Source: Brachyspira sp. SAP_772 (GTDB taxonomy: Bacteria; Spirochaetota; Brachyspiria; Brachyspirales; Brachyspiraceae). Taken from it: 64,000 nucleotides of DNA. A program made the position numbers and the translations under genes. The stretch lies in contig NZ_VYIX01000003.1 of assembly GCF_009755885.1 (NCBI RefSeq), positions 431,204-495,203 of the forward strand, written 5' to 3'. Positions 32,714-40,957 of this stretch are shown piece by piece. The stretch's first letter is position 1, and each line of letters opens with the position of its first letter. The notes under the pieces were generated by a model. The model ran no database searches and was not told where the DNA came from. It worked only from the letters and a program-made list of their open reading frames with translations.

Positions 32714-33661
32714 TTATTTAATTACTTCTTTTACTTTACTTAAAACATTTTCTCCAGATACACCATATTTTACTTTTAATTCTGTAGATTTACCAGATTC
32801 AGTGAAAGTATCTCTGCATCCTACTATTTTTAAAGGAGCAACATCTTTATACTCAGCAAGCACCTCAGCTACAGCACTTCCTAAACCGCCTATAACACTA
32901 TGATTCTCTAAAGTTACAACACATTTAACTTGTTTAGCATTTTCTACAATGTTTTTAGTATCCAAAGGTTTTAAAGAACGAACATGTATTAAACGATAAG
33001 TAATATTATTTTTTTCTAATAAATTAACAGCATCAACAGCCTGTTCAAAAGAAGAACCATCAAAAAATAATGCCACATCATCACCAGTTTTAGCTATTTC
33101 TTTATTTGTAATATCAAAATTAGCCTCTTCAGGAGAGTTATAAATAATAGGTACAGGCTCTCTTGATACTCTTATATAATAAAGCCCTTTGTTATTGAAA
33201 GCATAATTAATAGCAGATTTAACATCATTTTCATCAAGAGGAAGAAGCAGATTCATATTTGGTATACAACGTATTATAGCCATATCTTGTGTAGCTTGAT
33301 GGCTTGCACCGTCAGGACCAGCATCTAAACCGGGGTGAGTAGCTATTATTTTAAGATTAGCTTTAGTATAAGCAGCTTGTCTAATTTGAGTCCATACAGT
33401 ACCGCTTGCAAATATAGCGAAATTAACATATACAGGATACATTCCTTCTAATGCTAAACCAGTAGCAGCACTTAAAGAACTCTGCTCACCAATACCTAAT
33501 TCCCAATAATTTTTTGGAAAAGTTTTAGTTACATCATAAGCAGATGTTGATGTACCTAAATCATTGTCTATTACTATTATCTGATTGTTTTTTTCTATTA
33601 AACTAGTTAAATGTTTACCTATTACCGCTCTAGGAGCAGAAGTTTTTTCTATGTTTATCAT
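32714..33661 (-). CDS. Transketolase, C-terminal subunit
   Basis: A 315-residue protein with the pyrimidine-binding and C-terminal transketolase domains. It carries the catalytic Glu in NYWELGIGEQSSLSAATGLALEG near residues 50-70, then HPGLDAGPDGASHQATQDMAIIR near 110-130 and the C-terminal swivel domain from about residue 190. With the 33683 gene it forms a split transketolase, common in clostridia, archaea and spirochaetes. It transfers two-carbon units in the non-oxidative pentose phosphate pathway; a small transaldolase is encoded at 43277. It lies 21 bases after the N-terminal subunit gene. Confidence 0.94.
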   Translation of the reverse strand: MINIEKTSAPRAVIGKHLTSLIEKNNQIIVIDNDLGTSTSAYDVTKTFPKNYWELGIGEQSSLSAATGLALEGMYPVYVNFAIFASGTVWTQIRQAAYTKANLKIIATHPGLDAGPDGASHQATQDMAIIRCIPNMNLLLPLDENDVKSAINYAFNNKGLYYIRVSREPVPIIYNSPEEANFDITNKEIAKTGDDVALFFDGSSFEQAVDAVNLLEKNNITYRLIHVRSLKPLDTKNIVENAKQVKCVVTLENHSVIGGLGSAVAEVLAEYKDVAPLKIVGCRDTFTESGKSTELKVKYGVSGENVLSKVKEVIK

Positions 33662-33682
33662 AAATATTAGTCCCCTTTTTTA

Positions 33683-34489
33683 TTACATATCTAAATCTTT
33701 TTTTATTTGCTCAAAATCTTTATCACTTATAGTTAAAGAATGGCAATTAGGGTTATTTTCCAAGAAAGAAACACCTTTACCTTTTACTGTTTTCATTATA
33801 ATAGCAACAGGTTTTCCGCTTAATTTATCTAATTTATCTAAGGCTTCAACAACTTCTTTCATATTGTTTCCATCTTTTACTGTTATAACATTCCAATTAA
33901 AACTAGTAAACTTATCTTCTAAAGAGCCTAAATTAATAACTTCATTAACAGGGTCATGTGAAGATAAGCCATTATTATCTATAATAGCTACTAAATTATC
34001 TAATTTAAAATGAGCAGCCTGCTGAACAGTCTCCCAAATCTGACCTTCATGAAGTTCAGCATCACCGCATAAAGCAAATATTTTTTTAGGGTTATTATTG
34101 AATTTTCTAGCATAAGCCATACCCATAGCAACAGCTAAACCCTGACCTAAAAGACCTGTATTCATCTCTGTTTCTGGTATCTTATTAACATCTGGGTGCC
34201 CTTGAAGATGGCTATTAATATGTTTTAATGTTTTTAGCTCTTCCATAGGTATAATTCCAAGATTAGCTAATATAGCGTATTGCATAACAACAACGTGACC
34301 TTTAGATAATACAAAACGAACCCTATTACTGTCTTTAAGATCAATATATTTGTCGTATACAGCAACAGCCATATCCATAGCAGATAAAGATCCGCCTATA
34401 TGTGCAACCCCTTTTGCATCATATACCATTTGAAGAAAAATTTGTCTGCATTTTTTAGCTTTTTTTTCTAATTCTTCTATAGAACTCAT
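33683..34489 (-). CDS. Transketolase, N-terminal subunit
   Basis: A 268-residue thiamine-diphosphate-binding half of a split transketolase. Key features are GVAHIGGSLSAMDMAVAVYD near residues 27-46, VLSKGHVVVMQYA, GLLGQGLAVAMGMA and the ThDP motif GDAELHEGQIWE ... IDNN near 140-170. The usual His in SKGH is present. Note that GGSLS stands where full-length enzymes have GHPGxxxS, typical of the split form. It is the first gene of a two-gene operon with a promoter at 34560-34587 and a terminator at 32653. Confidence 0.94.
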   Translation of the reverse strand: MSSIEELEKKAKKCRQIFLQMVYDAKGVAHIGGSLSAMDMAVAVYDKYIDLKDSNRVRFVLSKGHVVVMQYAILANLGIIPMEELKTLKHINSHLQGHPDVNKIPETEMNTGLLGQGLAVAMGMAYARKFNNNPKKIFALCGDAELHEGQIWETVQQAAHFKLDNLVAIIDNNGLSSHDPVNEVINLGSLEDKFTSFNWNVITVKDGNNMKEVVEALDKLDKLSGKPVAIIMKTVKGKGVSFLENNPNCHSLTISDKDFEQIKKDLDM

Positions 34490-34647: not shown

Positions 34648-36279
34648 TTATTTTTTCATATCAACAAATCTTTTTTCATAAAACTTAGGTGCCAATATTG
34701 CCATTATGCACATTATTACAAATCCTGTTAATAAAGCTATTAAAGGATTTAAAGTAATACCTCCAACTATAATACCTACAAATGAAGCAATAGCTACCAA
34801 ACTTGCATAAGGAAGCTGTGTGCTAACGTGCTCAAGTAAAGGACAGTTACTTCCAGTAGAAGAAAGTATAGTAGTATCAGATATAGGAGAACAATGGTCG
34901 CCAAATACCGCACCAGATACCAAAGAACCTACACTAATAAGAAGTACATTCAAAAGCTGATCACCTGTATAACCATTAGCATTAGCAAGACCTGTAGCAA
35001 TAGGTATTACTATAGGAATAAGTATAGCAAAAGTACCCCAGCTTGTTCCAGTAGAGAAGGCTATAACACAACCAAGCAAATAACCAATAGCAGGAAGTAT
35101 CCAAAGAGGGAAACCGCCTCCTTTAACAACCTCTGATAGGAAAGAAGCTAAACCTAAACCGCCCTCTTCAGGTGATGATTTTATAACATTACCAATAGTC
35201 CAAGCTAAAGCTAATACCACCAAAGCAGGTACCATAGATTTTATACCTTCCATTATGGCATTGCCAGCAGAGCGAACAGTTAAAAGTCTTCTTGCCACAT
35301 AATAAATATACATTATCATAAGAGAAATAACTGCACCATAAAATAAAGCCTTAGAAGCATCTGTTTGTATAAAAGCATTTGTAACAGTTGTGCTGCTGAA
35401 AGCCTGAGATAAAGTCTCTATACCGTCAGAGCCAACTAATCCCATGTATGTAGTAATAGGGAACATTGCTATACAAGCCAATATTAATACTACTATTGCT
35501 ATAACCATGTCATACCATTTAGCACTGTCTCCAGATATAGTCTCTAAATTACCCGGACAAGCACCGTATAAATCTTCATTAAATAATTTGCCGTTAGCCG
35601 CATCATCTTCACTTCTTTTCATAGGTCCGAAATCTTTAAAAAATAAAGAAATTAATACTACAAAAGCCAAAGCTAAAAGCGGATAAACTGAATATGGTAT
35701 CATCTTTATAAAGAATATAAACTCACTCATATTCAAAGATTCAAACCCTTCAGAATCTCTAATATAACTCATAACCGTTACAACCCAAGTAGATATAGGT
35801 GCAAGTATACAAACAGGAGCAGCAGTAGAATCTAATATATAAGCAAGTTTAGCCCTAGAAATCTTTTTTTCATCAAAAGCAGGACGCATTACAGTACCCA
35901 CAGAAAGACTATTAAAATAATCATCTATAAATATAATAAGTCCAAAAAACCAAGTAAATATTAATACACTCTTTTTAGTTTTAAGGTATTTGCTAGCCCA
36001 TAAACCAAAAGCCTTAGTGGCACCTGTTTTTGAAAGCATGCTGACAAATGCCCCAAGCAAAGCACAAAATAAAAGTATTCTCACATTCCAAGAATCTCCA
36101 GTCATAGCAGCAACTTTATCTGTAAATATAGTAATAGCAGTAAATATGTTGCCATGTGCGAGTATTAAAGTACCAGAAAGTATACCAACTGTTAAAGAGA
36201 TTATTACCTCTTTAGTAAGAAGTGCAAGTATTATAGCCAAAAGCGGCGGTATAATACCGAATAAACCGTAATGTTCCAT
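34648..36279 (-). CDS. NhaC-family Na+/H+ (or amino-acid/organic-acid) antiporter
   Basis: A 543-residue integral membrane protein with about 11-12 hydrophobic helices. It fits the Na_H_antiporter (NhaC) family: GIIPPLLAIILALLTKEV at the N-terminus, FIDDYFNSLSVGTVMRP near residue 115-130, DSTAAPVCILAPISTW near 150, AFSTGTSWGTFAILIPIVIP near 405 and a conserved GDHCSPISDTTILSSTGS near 455. Family members exchange Na+ for H+ or for small organic ions, so the substrate is open. Expression seems controlled by transcription attenuation: a terminator sits about 50 bases before the ATG and a short leader peptide is encoded upstream. AGGAG lies ten bases before the start. Confidence 0.9.
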   Translation of the reverse strand: MEHYGLFGIIPPLLAIILALLTKEVIISLTVGILSGTLILAHGNIFTAITIFTDKVAAMTGDSWNVRILLFCALLGAFVSMLSKTGATKAFGLWASKYLKTKKSVLIFTWFFGLIIFIDDYFNSLSVGTVMRPAFDEKKISRAKLAYILDSTAAPVCILAPISTWVVTVMSYIRDSEGFESLNMSEFIFFIKMIPYSVYPLLALAFVVLISLFFKDFGPMKRSEDDAANGKLFNEDLYGACPGNLETISGDSAKWYDMVIAIVVLILACIAMFPITTYMGLVGSDGIETLSQAFSSTTVTNAFIQTDASKALFYGAVISLMIMYIYYVARRLLTVRSAGNAIMEGIKSMVPALVVLALAWTIGNVIKSSPEEGGLGLASFLSEVVKGGGFPLWILPAIGYLLGCVIAFSTGTSWGTFAILIPIVIPIATGLANANGYTGDQLLNVLLISVGSLVSGAVFGDHCSPISDTTILSSTGSNCPLLEHVSTQLPYASLVAIASFVGIIVGGITLNPLIALLTGFVIMCIMAILAPKFYEKRFVDMKK

Positions 36280-36322
36280 TTTTCAGTAACTCCTATTTTT
36301 TATGTATGTATTATATTCAAAT

Positions 36323-36350
36323 AAAAAAGCCCCCTATATTTAAGGGAGCT
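36323..36350 (-). terminator. Leader terminator upstream of the NhaC-family gene (attenuator)
   Basis: On the minus strand AGCTCCC (36350-36344) pairs with GGGGGCT (36334-36328), followed by six T. It lies between the promoter at 36470 and the gene start at 36279. The 5' arm is also part of AATTTAAGAGCTCCC, which can pair with GGGAGTGTTAAATT at the end of the leader ORF (36399-36386), a possible anti-terminator. This is the arrangement of an attenuator. Confidence 0.75.
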
Positions 36351-36388
36351 CTTAAATTGCTAAACTATATAATTAATGAATAAATAAT

Positions 36389-36439
36389 TTAACACTCCCA
36401 AACGATAAGAGGTTTATTTTGTTTCTTAAATTTATTCAT
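36389..36439 (-). CDS. Leader peptide of the NhaC-family gene (16 codons)
   Basis: A short ORF encoding MNKFKKQNKPLIVWEC with AGGA five bases before its ATG, 24 bases into the predicted transcript. Its last four codons (TGG GAG TGT TAA) overlap the strand that can pair with the left arm of the downstream terminator, so ribosome position could decide which hairpin forms. It is too short for routine gene calling, and conservation would have to be shown. The single Trp and Cys near the end are the candidate sensing codons. Confidence 0.5.
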   Translation of the reverse strand: MNKFKKQNKPLIVWEC

Positions 36440-36469
36440 TATTTTCCTACTTTCTTTTTATAGTAACTG

Positions 36470-36498
36470 ATTCTACTACAAAATATTAACTTTGTCAA
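36470..36498 (-). promoter_or_regulatory. Promoter of the leader peptide / NhaC-family unit
   Basis: Minus-strand TTGACA (36498-36493), a 17-base spacer, TAGAAT (36475-36470). The start is near 36463, giving a leader of about 185 bases. The rest of the gap to the divergent gene at 36658 is plain AT-rich DNA. Confidence 0.7.
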
Positions 36499-36657
36499 CA
36501 TACAAATAATATAATAGTAGCTGCTTTTTAAATATATATTTAAATTATTTTAAATACAATTTTATAGCTACATAATAAAACAAGTACAAAATGTATATTG
36601 ATATATTAATAAAAAATGTTATTATATATGATATTATAATATATACTTTAAATTGTT

Positions 36658-37944
36658 ATGAATATTGAGTTTCTACTTAGTGCTAAATTTAATAGGGCTC
36701 TTCCTACAAAAGATAGACTATTTAAATCAATAGTATCATCTCTAAACGAAGTAAATATTAACCCGCTTGTTATGCTTTCAGAATATTCTATCTTAGATGA
36801 AGATAAATCAAGCACATTAATATATTCATTTCATCCAGCTTCTGACCCTGTGTATTTTGAATATAAAGAAGGCACACTATATGTAACTATTAATAGCGGT
36901 ACTTTTGGTGCTGGGTATCATAGATTTATAATTTCTGTACTCGATAGAATTTCTAGAAGATTAGATATTGTTTTTGAAGAAGATGAAACATATAAAGACC
37001 ATAGCGGTTATTTTGAAGAAAGAGATTTTGATAAATTAAAAACATTTTTTACTTTGGCATTAAATGAATATTCAGAGAGTTTGCTTGCTAATGAAGAGTT
37101 TACAAACTTTATGATATCTATGCCTTATGATTATCCTATGATAGAAAAAGAATATTATGCACTTTCTCCTTTGGGATATTGGGGTAAGTCTTGGTTTCAT
37201 AATTTGGTTGATGCTCCTTTAGAAGATAAATATAATTTTGCAAGAGAGTTTTTTATTTGGAATGATGAAGAGATTAATGCTGACTTTTGGTTTAAGAGTT
37301 TAAATAGCATTATATGGCTTTATTTCCCTTTTAGAGAGATTATAGATGATAAAGAGAGAGATACATACAAAAAAATAATTTACTCTTTTCAAGAAGCATA
37401 TAAAAAAGATAAAACATTGCCGTATCCTTGGCAGATACTTGCTGATATAGCGTATTATTTGGACGATGATAATTTAGCAAAATTTATAGAAACTAATAAA
37501 CAAAATAATATTCAAATGGTTAATACTGATATTGGATTTAGAAAAGAATATGCAAGATACTCTATTGCGGGCGGGTTTAATATTTCTCTTCCTATGAGTT
37601 TTAATATTTACAGAGATGATAAAACCTTAGTAGAGTTTAAAAACATACATACATACATTGCAATGCAGGTATATTCTTTTGCAAACGATGAAATTGACGC
37701 TATAATGGAATATGTTATAAAACAAATGGACGTCACAAAAGAAGAGAAAGGCGACCTTACAGATATAAAAATAAAAGATATAAAATCTGCTGTATACAAA
37801 AAATCTATGGGTAATGATGATTATGTATTTACTGTAGTAGCTGTTTCAAAAAAGCTAGCACTTCTTGCATGGTTTACATACAATGGAAAAGAAAATGAAG
37901 AATTATGCATAGAGGCTATAAAGTCTATAAGTATATATAATTAA
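36658..37944 (+). CDS. Unknown cytoplasmic protein (428 residues)
   Basis: I do not recognise this protein. It has no signal peptide or membrane helix. It is acidic and rich in aromatic residues (YDYPMIEKEYYALSPLGYWGKSWFHNL near residues 160-185; FWFKSLNSIIWLYFPFREI near 200-222). Residues about 60-110 look like a small alpha/beta unit (FHPASDPVYFEYKEGTLYVTINSGTFGAGYHRF). The C-terminal 120 residues resemble a compact mixed domain ending IEAIKSISIYN, with FTVVAVSKKLALLAWFTYNG, similar in style to immunity or stress proteins. It ends with stop codons interleaved with the convergent sulfotransferase-like gene. Confidence 0.45.
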   Translation: MNIEFLLSAKFNRALPTKDRLFKSIVSSLNEVNINPLVMLSEYSILDEDKSSTLIYSFHPASDPVYFEYKEGTLYVTINSGTFGAGYHRFIISVLDRISRRLDIVFEEDETYKDHSGYFEERDFDKLKTFFTLALNEYSESLLANEEFTNFMISMPYDYPMIEKEYYALSPLGYWGKSWFHNLVDAPLEDKYNFAREFFIWNDEEINADFWFKSLNSIIWLYFPFREIIDDKERDTYKKIIYSFQEAYKKDKTLPYPWQILADIAYYLDDDNLAKFIETNKQNNIQMVNTDIGFRKEYARYSIAGGFNISLPMSFNIYRDDKTLVEFKNIHTYIAMQVYSFANDEIDAIMEYVIKQMDVTKEEKGDLTDIKIKDIKSAVYKKSMGNDDYVFTVVAVSKKLALLAWFTYNGKENEELCIEAIKSISIYN

Positions 37945-39949: not shown

Positions 39950-40957
39950 TTATTTCAACAATACATTATTTATCATATATCTAATTTGTACATAATTATT
40001 AATATCCACAGGACTACTTATAACTCTAGAGTTTAAAAATATTTGCTGCTGAGCTTCATACCATTTAATAGCTGTTCCATCTGTATAAGCACTTTTTACA
40101 TCAGAGCCATCAAGCCATATAGCAGTTTCCTTCTCTAAAACAACAGACTCAACAGGTGTTCCATTTAATTTAGCAACTATCTGAACAGTTTCATCCATAT
40201 TATTTGCTCTATAATCCATAGCCTTTAATATAGCCATTGAAAATCTATTAACTATATCTTCATTTTTATTCTGATAATCAGGAGTTACTATCCAACTGCT
40301 TGGAAATACTGCTTCATCTAAATAATTAGTAATAGAAGCTAGTACAGTAACTTCATGTCCAAGAAGTGTAGATATTTCAAAAGTATAAGGTGCCCATATA
40401 GAAACAGCATCAACATTTTTAAGTACCATAGCAGATACTATTTCATTAACATTCATATTAATAATATTAACATCATCTTTTGTAAGTCCAACTTTTCTCA
40501 AAGCAATATCCAAAAGTATATCACCAGAAGTTCCAAGCTGAGTACCTATAGTTTTACCTTTTAAATCAGTGATATTATTAACTCTAGCCCATTCGCCTAC
40601 AATAATTTGTTCAGACTTGCTCAAACCATTAGGAAATAATATATTAACTTTACCTTGTATAGCTAATGAATGAGCACCATGTCCTATATATGCAAATTGT
40701 ATATCACCAGCAAGCATAGAATCAACTTCAGAAGGACCATTCAAAAATTTAACTAATTCCACATCTAAATTCTCTTCTTCGAAAAAACCTTTTTCTTTTG
40801 CTATAGCAGCAGCCGAAGTACCAGAAAAATCTGCCAAATAACCAACTCTTATTTTATCAGCTTCTTTATCATCATTTTTACTACAGCCCACAAAACAAGA
40901 CAAAATTAAAAACAATAAAACTGTAAACATAGAAGAAAGACATATATTTTTTTTCAT
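39950..40957 (-). CDS. ABC transporter substrate-binding lipoprotein (NMT1/SsuA type)
   Basis: A 335-residue lipoprotein; the signal peptide has lipobox-like LILSC and FVGC, so the mature Cys is residue 21 or 25. The mature part is a type II periplasmic-binding fold of the NMT1/SsuA family: IRVGYLADFSGTSAAAIAKEKGFF, VELVKFLNGPSEVDSMLAGDIQFAYIG, the hinge segment DLKGKTIGTQLGTSGDILLD, and VDAVSIWAPYTFEI. Ligands of the family are sulfonates, thiamine precursors, nitrate or similar small organic molecules. No permease or ATPase gene is adjacent, so partners must be elsewhere. GGAG stands eight bases before the start. Confidence 0.88.
   Translation of the reverse strand: MKKNICLSSMFTVLLFLILSCFVGCSKNDDKEADKIRVGYLADFSGTSAAAIAKEKGFFEEENLDVELVKFLNGPSEVDSMLAGDIQFAYIGHGAHSLAIQGKVNILFPNGLSKSEQIIVGEWARVNNITDLKGKTIGTQLGTSGDILLDIALRKVGLTKDDVNIINMNVNEIVSAMVLKNVDAVSIWAPYTFEISTLLGHEVTVLASITNYLDEAVFPSSWIVTPDYQNKNEDIVNRFSMAILKAMDYRANNMDETVQIVAKLNGTPVESVVLEKETAIWLDGSDVKSAYTDGTAIKWYEAQQQIFLNSRVISSPVDINNYVQIRYMINNVLLK

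Follow-up and report, generated by a model that had tools for sequence, protein, structure and literature searches.

A putative lysine-codon leader-peptide attenuator ahead of a predicted LysW-like transporter gene in Brachyspira

The minus strand of the 64,000-nucleotide stretch of the Brachyspira sp. SAP_772 genome that we analysed (the window) carries a short leader open reading frame (ORF) and a rho-independent terminator ahead of a gene for an NhaC-superfamily transporter. We consider it likely that this leader is a ribosome-mediated, trp-type transcription attenuator, which would use Lys control codons and act on a LysW-like lysine transporter. The evidence consists of conservation, coding-level selection on the Lys and stop codons, the geometry of the leader, its complementary arms, and the lysine riboswitches found before homologs of the transporter. 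From these sequence data, we infer that the leader is transcribed, that ribosomes stall on it, that the system responds to lysine, and that the protein transports lysine.

Under the proposed mechanism, a scarcity of charged tRNA-Lys would cause the ribosome to stall on the leader Lys codons, leaving a GGGAG element 16–19 nt downstream free to pair with CUCCC once the latter is transcribed. This pairing would remove the left arm of the terminator, and RNA polymerase would read into the transporter gene. When lysine is plentiful, the ribosome would instead reach the stop codon and cover GGGAG, the terminator would form, and transcription would end after roughly 140 nt.

Architecture of the leader and its conservation

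The features of the window on which this reading is based are as follows.

36470–36498, minus strand: sigma-70-like promoter, TTGACA-17-TAGAAT, with 11/12 matches
36445–36448, minus strand: ribosome-binding site AGGA of the leader ORF, recognised from the sequence
36389–36439, minus strand: leader peptide ORF, MNKFKKQNKPLIVWEC then stop, 16 codons, ATG to TAA, conserved in 24/25 orthologs
36422–36427, minus strand: Lys-Lys codons at −9/−8 relative to Trp, picked out by conservation across leaders
36413–36415, minus strand: last Lys codon, the proposed main control codon, its first base 16 nt before GGGAG
36406–36411, minus strand: CUCUUA, a weak partner of UGGGAG and possible region 1, from folding
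36395–36399, minus strand: GGGAG, spanning the Trp and Glu codons, the putative antiterminator 5' arm (region 2)
36344–36358, minus strand: putative antiterminator 3' arm AAUUUAAGAGCUCCC (region 3), overlapping the left arm of the terminator
36325–36353, minus strand: rho-independent terminator stem-loop, followed by the remaining U-run
34648–36279, minus strand: NhaC-superfamily transporter, a predicted LysW-like lysine transporter of 543 aa

The promoter, the 16-codon ORF, and the terminator that a first-pass annotation of this DNA had placed before an NhaC-family gene were all confirmed at their minus-strand positions. The ATG of the transporter gene, at 36279, lies 46 nt past the terminator stem. 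GGGAG (36399–36395) can pair with CUCCC (36348–36344) in the left arm of the terminator, and in the window this pairing is lengthened by UUAAAUU:AAUUUAA (3' side 36358–36344). The fold of the window leader was more stable than those of shuffled sequences (z = −3.4), and an Rfam search of the window matched no family.

Several other elements were observed around the leader. Just 3' of the −10 box, an inverted-repeat-like sequence, TTACTATNAAAAGTAA, occupies 36467–36447 on the minus strand; most orthologs share it, even the one that lacks the leader, and it could possibly be an operator or a hairpin that stabilises the 5' end. The transporter gene is followed directly by two genes that encode the N- and C-terminal halves of transketolase (32714–34489, minus strand). 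Divergent from the leader is a gene whose 428-aa product matched nothing in Pfam or NCBIfam (36658–37944, plus strand), and further out lie genes for an arylsulfotransferase-like protein (PF05935; 37941–39485, minus strand) and, adjoining it, an SsuA/taurine-type substrate-binding protein (39950–40957, minus strand).

The nearest named orthologs of the transporter came from Brachyspira. An ortholog was present in 25 of 26 Brachyspira genomes, and the leader ORF was kept at 24 of these 25 loci, 23 times with a W-E-C/Y ending and once in a divergent form (genome G019, 74% protein identity, peptide MFITVKKHKKLHFCWS). Across the 24 leaders, ORF length varies by whole codons, from 15 to 20, through in-frame indels, and the stop codon swaps between TAA and TGA. 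Judged by this comparison, the leader ORF is genuine, being kept genus-wide with frame-preserving changes. An intrinsic terminator was found in 24/24 leaders. The complementary arms are GGGAG:CUCCC in 23 of them and GGAG:CUCC in the divergent one, and each time the arm matches the terminator of its own leader. The alignment of orthologous upstream regions, with its short ORF and matching arms, thus supports by genus-wide conservation the earlier proposal of a leader peptide with mutually exclusive terminator and antiterminator structures.

The promoter is kept, with TTGACA and a TATAAT-like hexamer, in 25/25 orthologs. This count includes genome G001 (locus L093), in which the promoter and gene are retained and the leader and terminator are lost; this natural deletion would be expected to make transporter expression constitutive. 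In locus L103 (G021), from an assembly that is 86% complete, the leader starts with ATT where others have ATG, which could be either a rare start codon or an assembly error.

The end motif TTGGGAGTRYTRAATT gave one match per genome in 22 of the 26 Brachyspira genomes, always at the transporter leader, and control matches were zero. With this single site per genome, no wider regulon carrying the motif was found, and near-matches in the window's own genome look like chance. Among the genomes examined, no leader of this type was observed before lysA or dapA. A comparable ORF-plus-terminator arrangement was likewise not seen upstream of the 14 distant homologs inspected, from Treponema/Sphaerochaeta and others.

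Lysine codons, leader folding, and alternative explanations

Changes in the leaders were counted by codon column on the gene tree using parsimony, with columns numbered relative to Trp. Columns −9 and −8 hold Lys in 23 of 24 leaders in the ungapped frame, with changes between AAA and AAG only, and the 24th leader, which has a 4-codon deletion, carries its own Lys-Lys at −6/−5. Column −6 is Lys in 19 leaders and Asn in five, and those five have Lys at −5 instead. The stop column changes three times and remains a stop, and the amino acid changes freely at columns −10, −7, −4, −2, and −1. At the Lys sites, 5/5 changes were synonymous, compared to 9/69 at other variable columns (Fisher p = 1e-4, a value based on few events and on columns picked after inspection). 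Lys accounts for 20% of leader residues, compared to 7.6% in nine neighbouring genes. Against a Lys-specific reading, its tract is AT-rich, and Phe is enriched too, at 16% compared to 4%. The substitution pattern suggests that the Lys codons are under peptide-level selection.

The spacing of the leader is also consistent, with the last Lys found 5 or 6 codons ahead of Trp, and its first base 16 or 19 nt from the start of GGGAG, in 24/24 leaders. Counted from the first base of its A-site codon, a ribosome covers ~12 nt on the 3' side; with this footprint, GGGAG would be just free when the ribosome is on the last Lys and covered when it is at the stop codon. We modelled the folds with the ribosome footprint blocked, using energies at 37 °C for this AT-rich RNA and no kinetics, which calls for a cautious reading of the values. 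With the ribosome on the last Lys, the antiterminator had a probability of at least 0.99 in 24/24 truncated transcripts. When the ribosome instead occupied the stop codon, the antiterminator was zero by construction, and the terminator had a probability of 0.82–1.0. At equilibrium, the full-length transcript often favoured the terminator despite a ribosome on Lys, and the choice would therefore have to fall kinetically, while transcription is under way, which is also how known attenuators work.

When all codons were scanned in the same model, a stall at any position before the last few codons was permissive, Phe or Asn included, and stalls at the W, E, C, and stop codons were not. Since any upstream stall is permissive, geometry alone cannot separate Lys from Phe or Asn as the signal; the selection pattern does. 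The pairing expected to protect against read-through, between GGGAG and the preceding CUCUUA/CUUCU (1:2), varied widely: P12 was mostly 0.2–0.6 in the window clade and ~0 in most main-clade leaders, and the divergent leader reached 0.99. With so weak a protector, an untranslated leader might read through in the main clade, and this stem is, in our models, the weakest point of a trp-type account.

The first-pass annotation had proposed that translation of the last codons, Trp-Glu-Cys-stop, decides read-through. This has the wrong sign, given that a ribosome there hides UGGGAG and leaves only the terminator. In addition, two genomes have Tyr in place of Cys and another has Ser instead of Glu-Cys; it is the Lys codons 5–9 positions before Trp that change only synonymously and keep a fixed spacing. 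Sensing through Trp-Glu-Cys is probably wrong. We consider improbable the wider form of this idea, in which ribosomes would stall on the conserved C-terminal W-E-C as they finish the ORF, either by starvation for Trp or Cys or by ligand-induced arrest as in TnaC. W is invariant in 24/24 leaders and E-C nearly so, but UGGGAG is constrained as RNA anyway, one Trp and one end Cys make poor control codons, and a stall covering GGGAG would favour the terminator. It is unlikely that the leader controls a drug efflux pump by sensing antibiotics or the general rate of translation, with any slow-down in the leader exposing the antiterminator. The permissive upstream stalls in the model agree with such a sensor, as does a sub-threshold match of the transporter to Tet(35) (178 bits, where the cut-off is 750), yet it leaves aside the Lys-specific purifying selection and spacing, and the homologs lie behind lysine riboswitches, not drug-response leaders.

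Two further explanations deny the Lys codons, or translation itself, a role in sensing. That Phe or another amino acid is the signal, with the Lys codons acting as AT-rich filler or pairing with the terminator U-run, seems very improbable to us. The share of Phe among leader residues (16%) is in keeping with this explanation, and inspection shows that some leaders have an A-rich tract able to pair with the GGCUUUUUU end, a pairing that would agree with the folds of the full-length transcripts. However, the Phe positions are unfixed (−13 to −10), the conserved Phe at −3 (TTC) is located where a stall mostly covers GGGAG, and the Lys columns switch between AAA and AAG, never to other A-rich codons. 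We give hardly any credence to a plain conserved terminator, or to an RNA switch bound by a protein or ligand, with no need for translation. Mutually exclusive stems do exist without a ribosome, but the reading frame is kept through indels, the stop is kept through TAA/TGA swaps, the Lys changes are synonymous only, and no Rfam family was matched.

Transporter identity and the link to lysine

The transporter protein matched PF03553 (Na_H_antiporter) in Pfam with an E-value of 4.4e-44, while NCBIfam gave sub-threshold matches only, to Tet(35) and NhaC. No solved structure was found for it by sequence. NhaC-superfamily genes under lysine riboswitches have been described as lysW, with lysine transport treated as a prediction (PMC5584792, PMC11477304) and the function of the family unproven (PMC11477304). 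In our species collection, a same-strand lysine riboswitch preceded 26 of the 78 homologs outside Brachyspira, and none of the 78 was preceded by a T-box or SAM riboswitch. The riboswitch-bearing homologs, ~40% identical, belong to a large clade composed mainly of Bacillota sequences. Its neighbour is the separate, long-branched clade of the spirochaete transporters. No lysine riboswitch was observed in that spirochaete clade, including the eight nearest spirochaete relatives (0 of eight). Similarly, the lysine riboswitch model (RF00168) had no match in the window or in any of the 26 Brachyspira genomes, and the T-box model (RF00230) had none in the window or in the nine Brachyspira genomes searched. 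A lysA gene was present in 26/26 Brachyspira genomes, and dapA was above the family cut-off in 25/26.

Lysine is the putative substrate because two independent lines point to it, namely the riboswitches before the homologs and the Lys codons in the leader. The gene had first been read as an NhaC-type antiporter; the superfamily was right, and, with its nearest non-spirochaete homologs often behind lysine riboswitches, the protein is probably better read as a LysW-like lysine transporter. Among the observations that count against the Lys-codon attenuator are the separate long-branch clade of the spirochaete transporters, the ~40% identity of the riboswitch-bearing homologs, and the occurrence of other NhaC members under Tyr T-boxes (PMC2494555). 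On balance, we lean somewhat towards a replacement, in which the Brachyspira Lys-codon attenuator stands in for the lysine riboswitch of clostridial homologs and a single transporter family has come under two unrelated RNA sensors by convergence.

Comparison with known attenuators and lysine sensors

Leader-peptide attenuation is best known from Proteobacteria and for a limited set of amino acids. The trp/his/phe/thr attenuators of that group share with the Brachyspira leader a short ORF with control codons, overlapping antiterminator and terminator structures, a U-run before the structural gene, and the masking of region 2 by a ribosome at the stop codon. The Brachyspira leader differs from them in that its proposed control codons are Lys, few in number (2–4), and spaced rather than in a long run. 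Its region 2 lies within the last two sense codons, its protector stem is weak or absent, its host is a spirochaete, and its target is a transporter.

The lysine riboswitch (L box, RF00168) before lysW regulates a gene of the same transporter superfamily (NhaC, COG1757-like), and by inference low lysine leads to expression in both systems. In contrast, the Brachyspira leader has no lysine aptamer, and sensing would go via tRNA-Lys charging and translation. The Tyr T-box before Firmicutes NhaC-family genes (PMC2494555) senses tRNA charging and controls an NhaC-type amino acid transporter by antitermination at the RNA level, as proposed for the Brachyspira leader, though it serves a different amino acid and works through an element absent from the window and the nine Brachyspira genomes. 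We found no description of a lysine-type, Brachyspira, or NhaC leader-peptide attenuator in the open-access literature. The nearest is a suggestion about SEP5 of Sinorhizobium meliloti (PMC10117765), an upstream ORF with Lys codons that was proposed as a leader peptide; it differs in having a mixed Thr/Lys cluster and in preceding an aspartate dehydrogenase gene.

The mechanism proposed here is of a known kind. What appears to be new is its use for lysine, its occurrence in Brachyspira, and its substitution for a riboswitch within one transporter superfamily. Adding a conserved leader of the Lys type, from a spirochaete genus, would extend the list of amino acids known from attenuation. Such a leader would also bear independently on the function of the riboswitch-linked NhaC proteins (lysW), which may move lysine or only protons and sodium. 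If true, the convergence of two RNA sensors argues that this branch of NhaC imports lysine.
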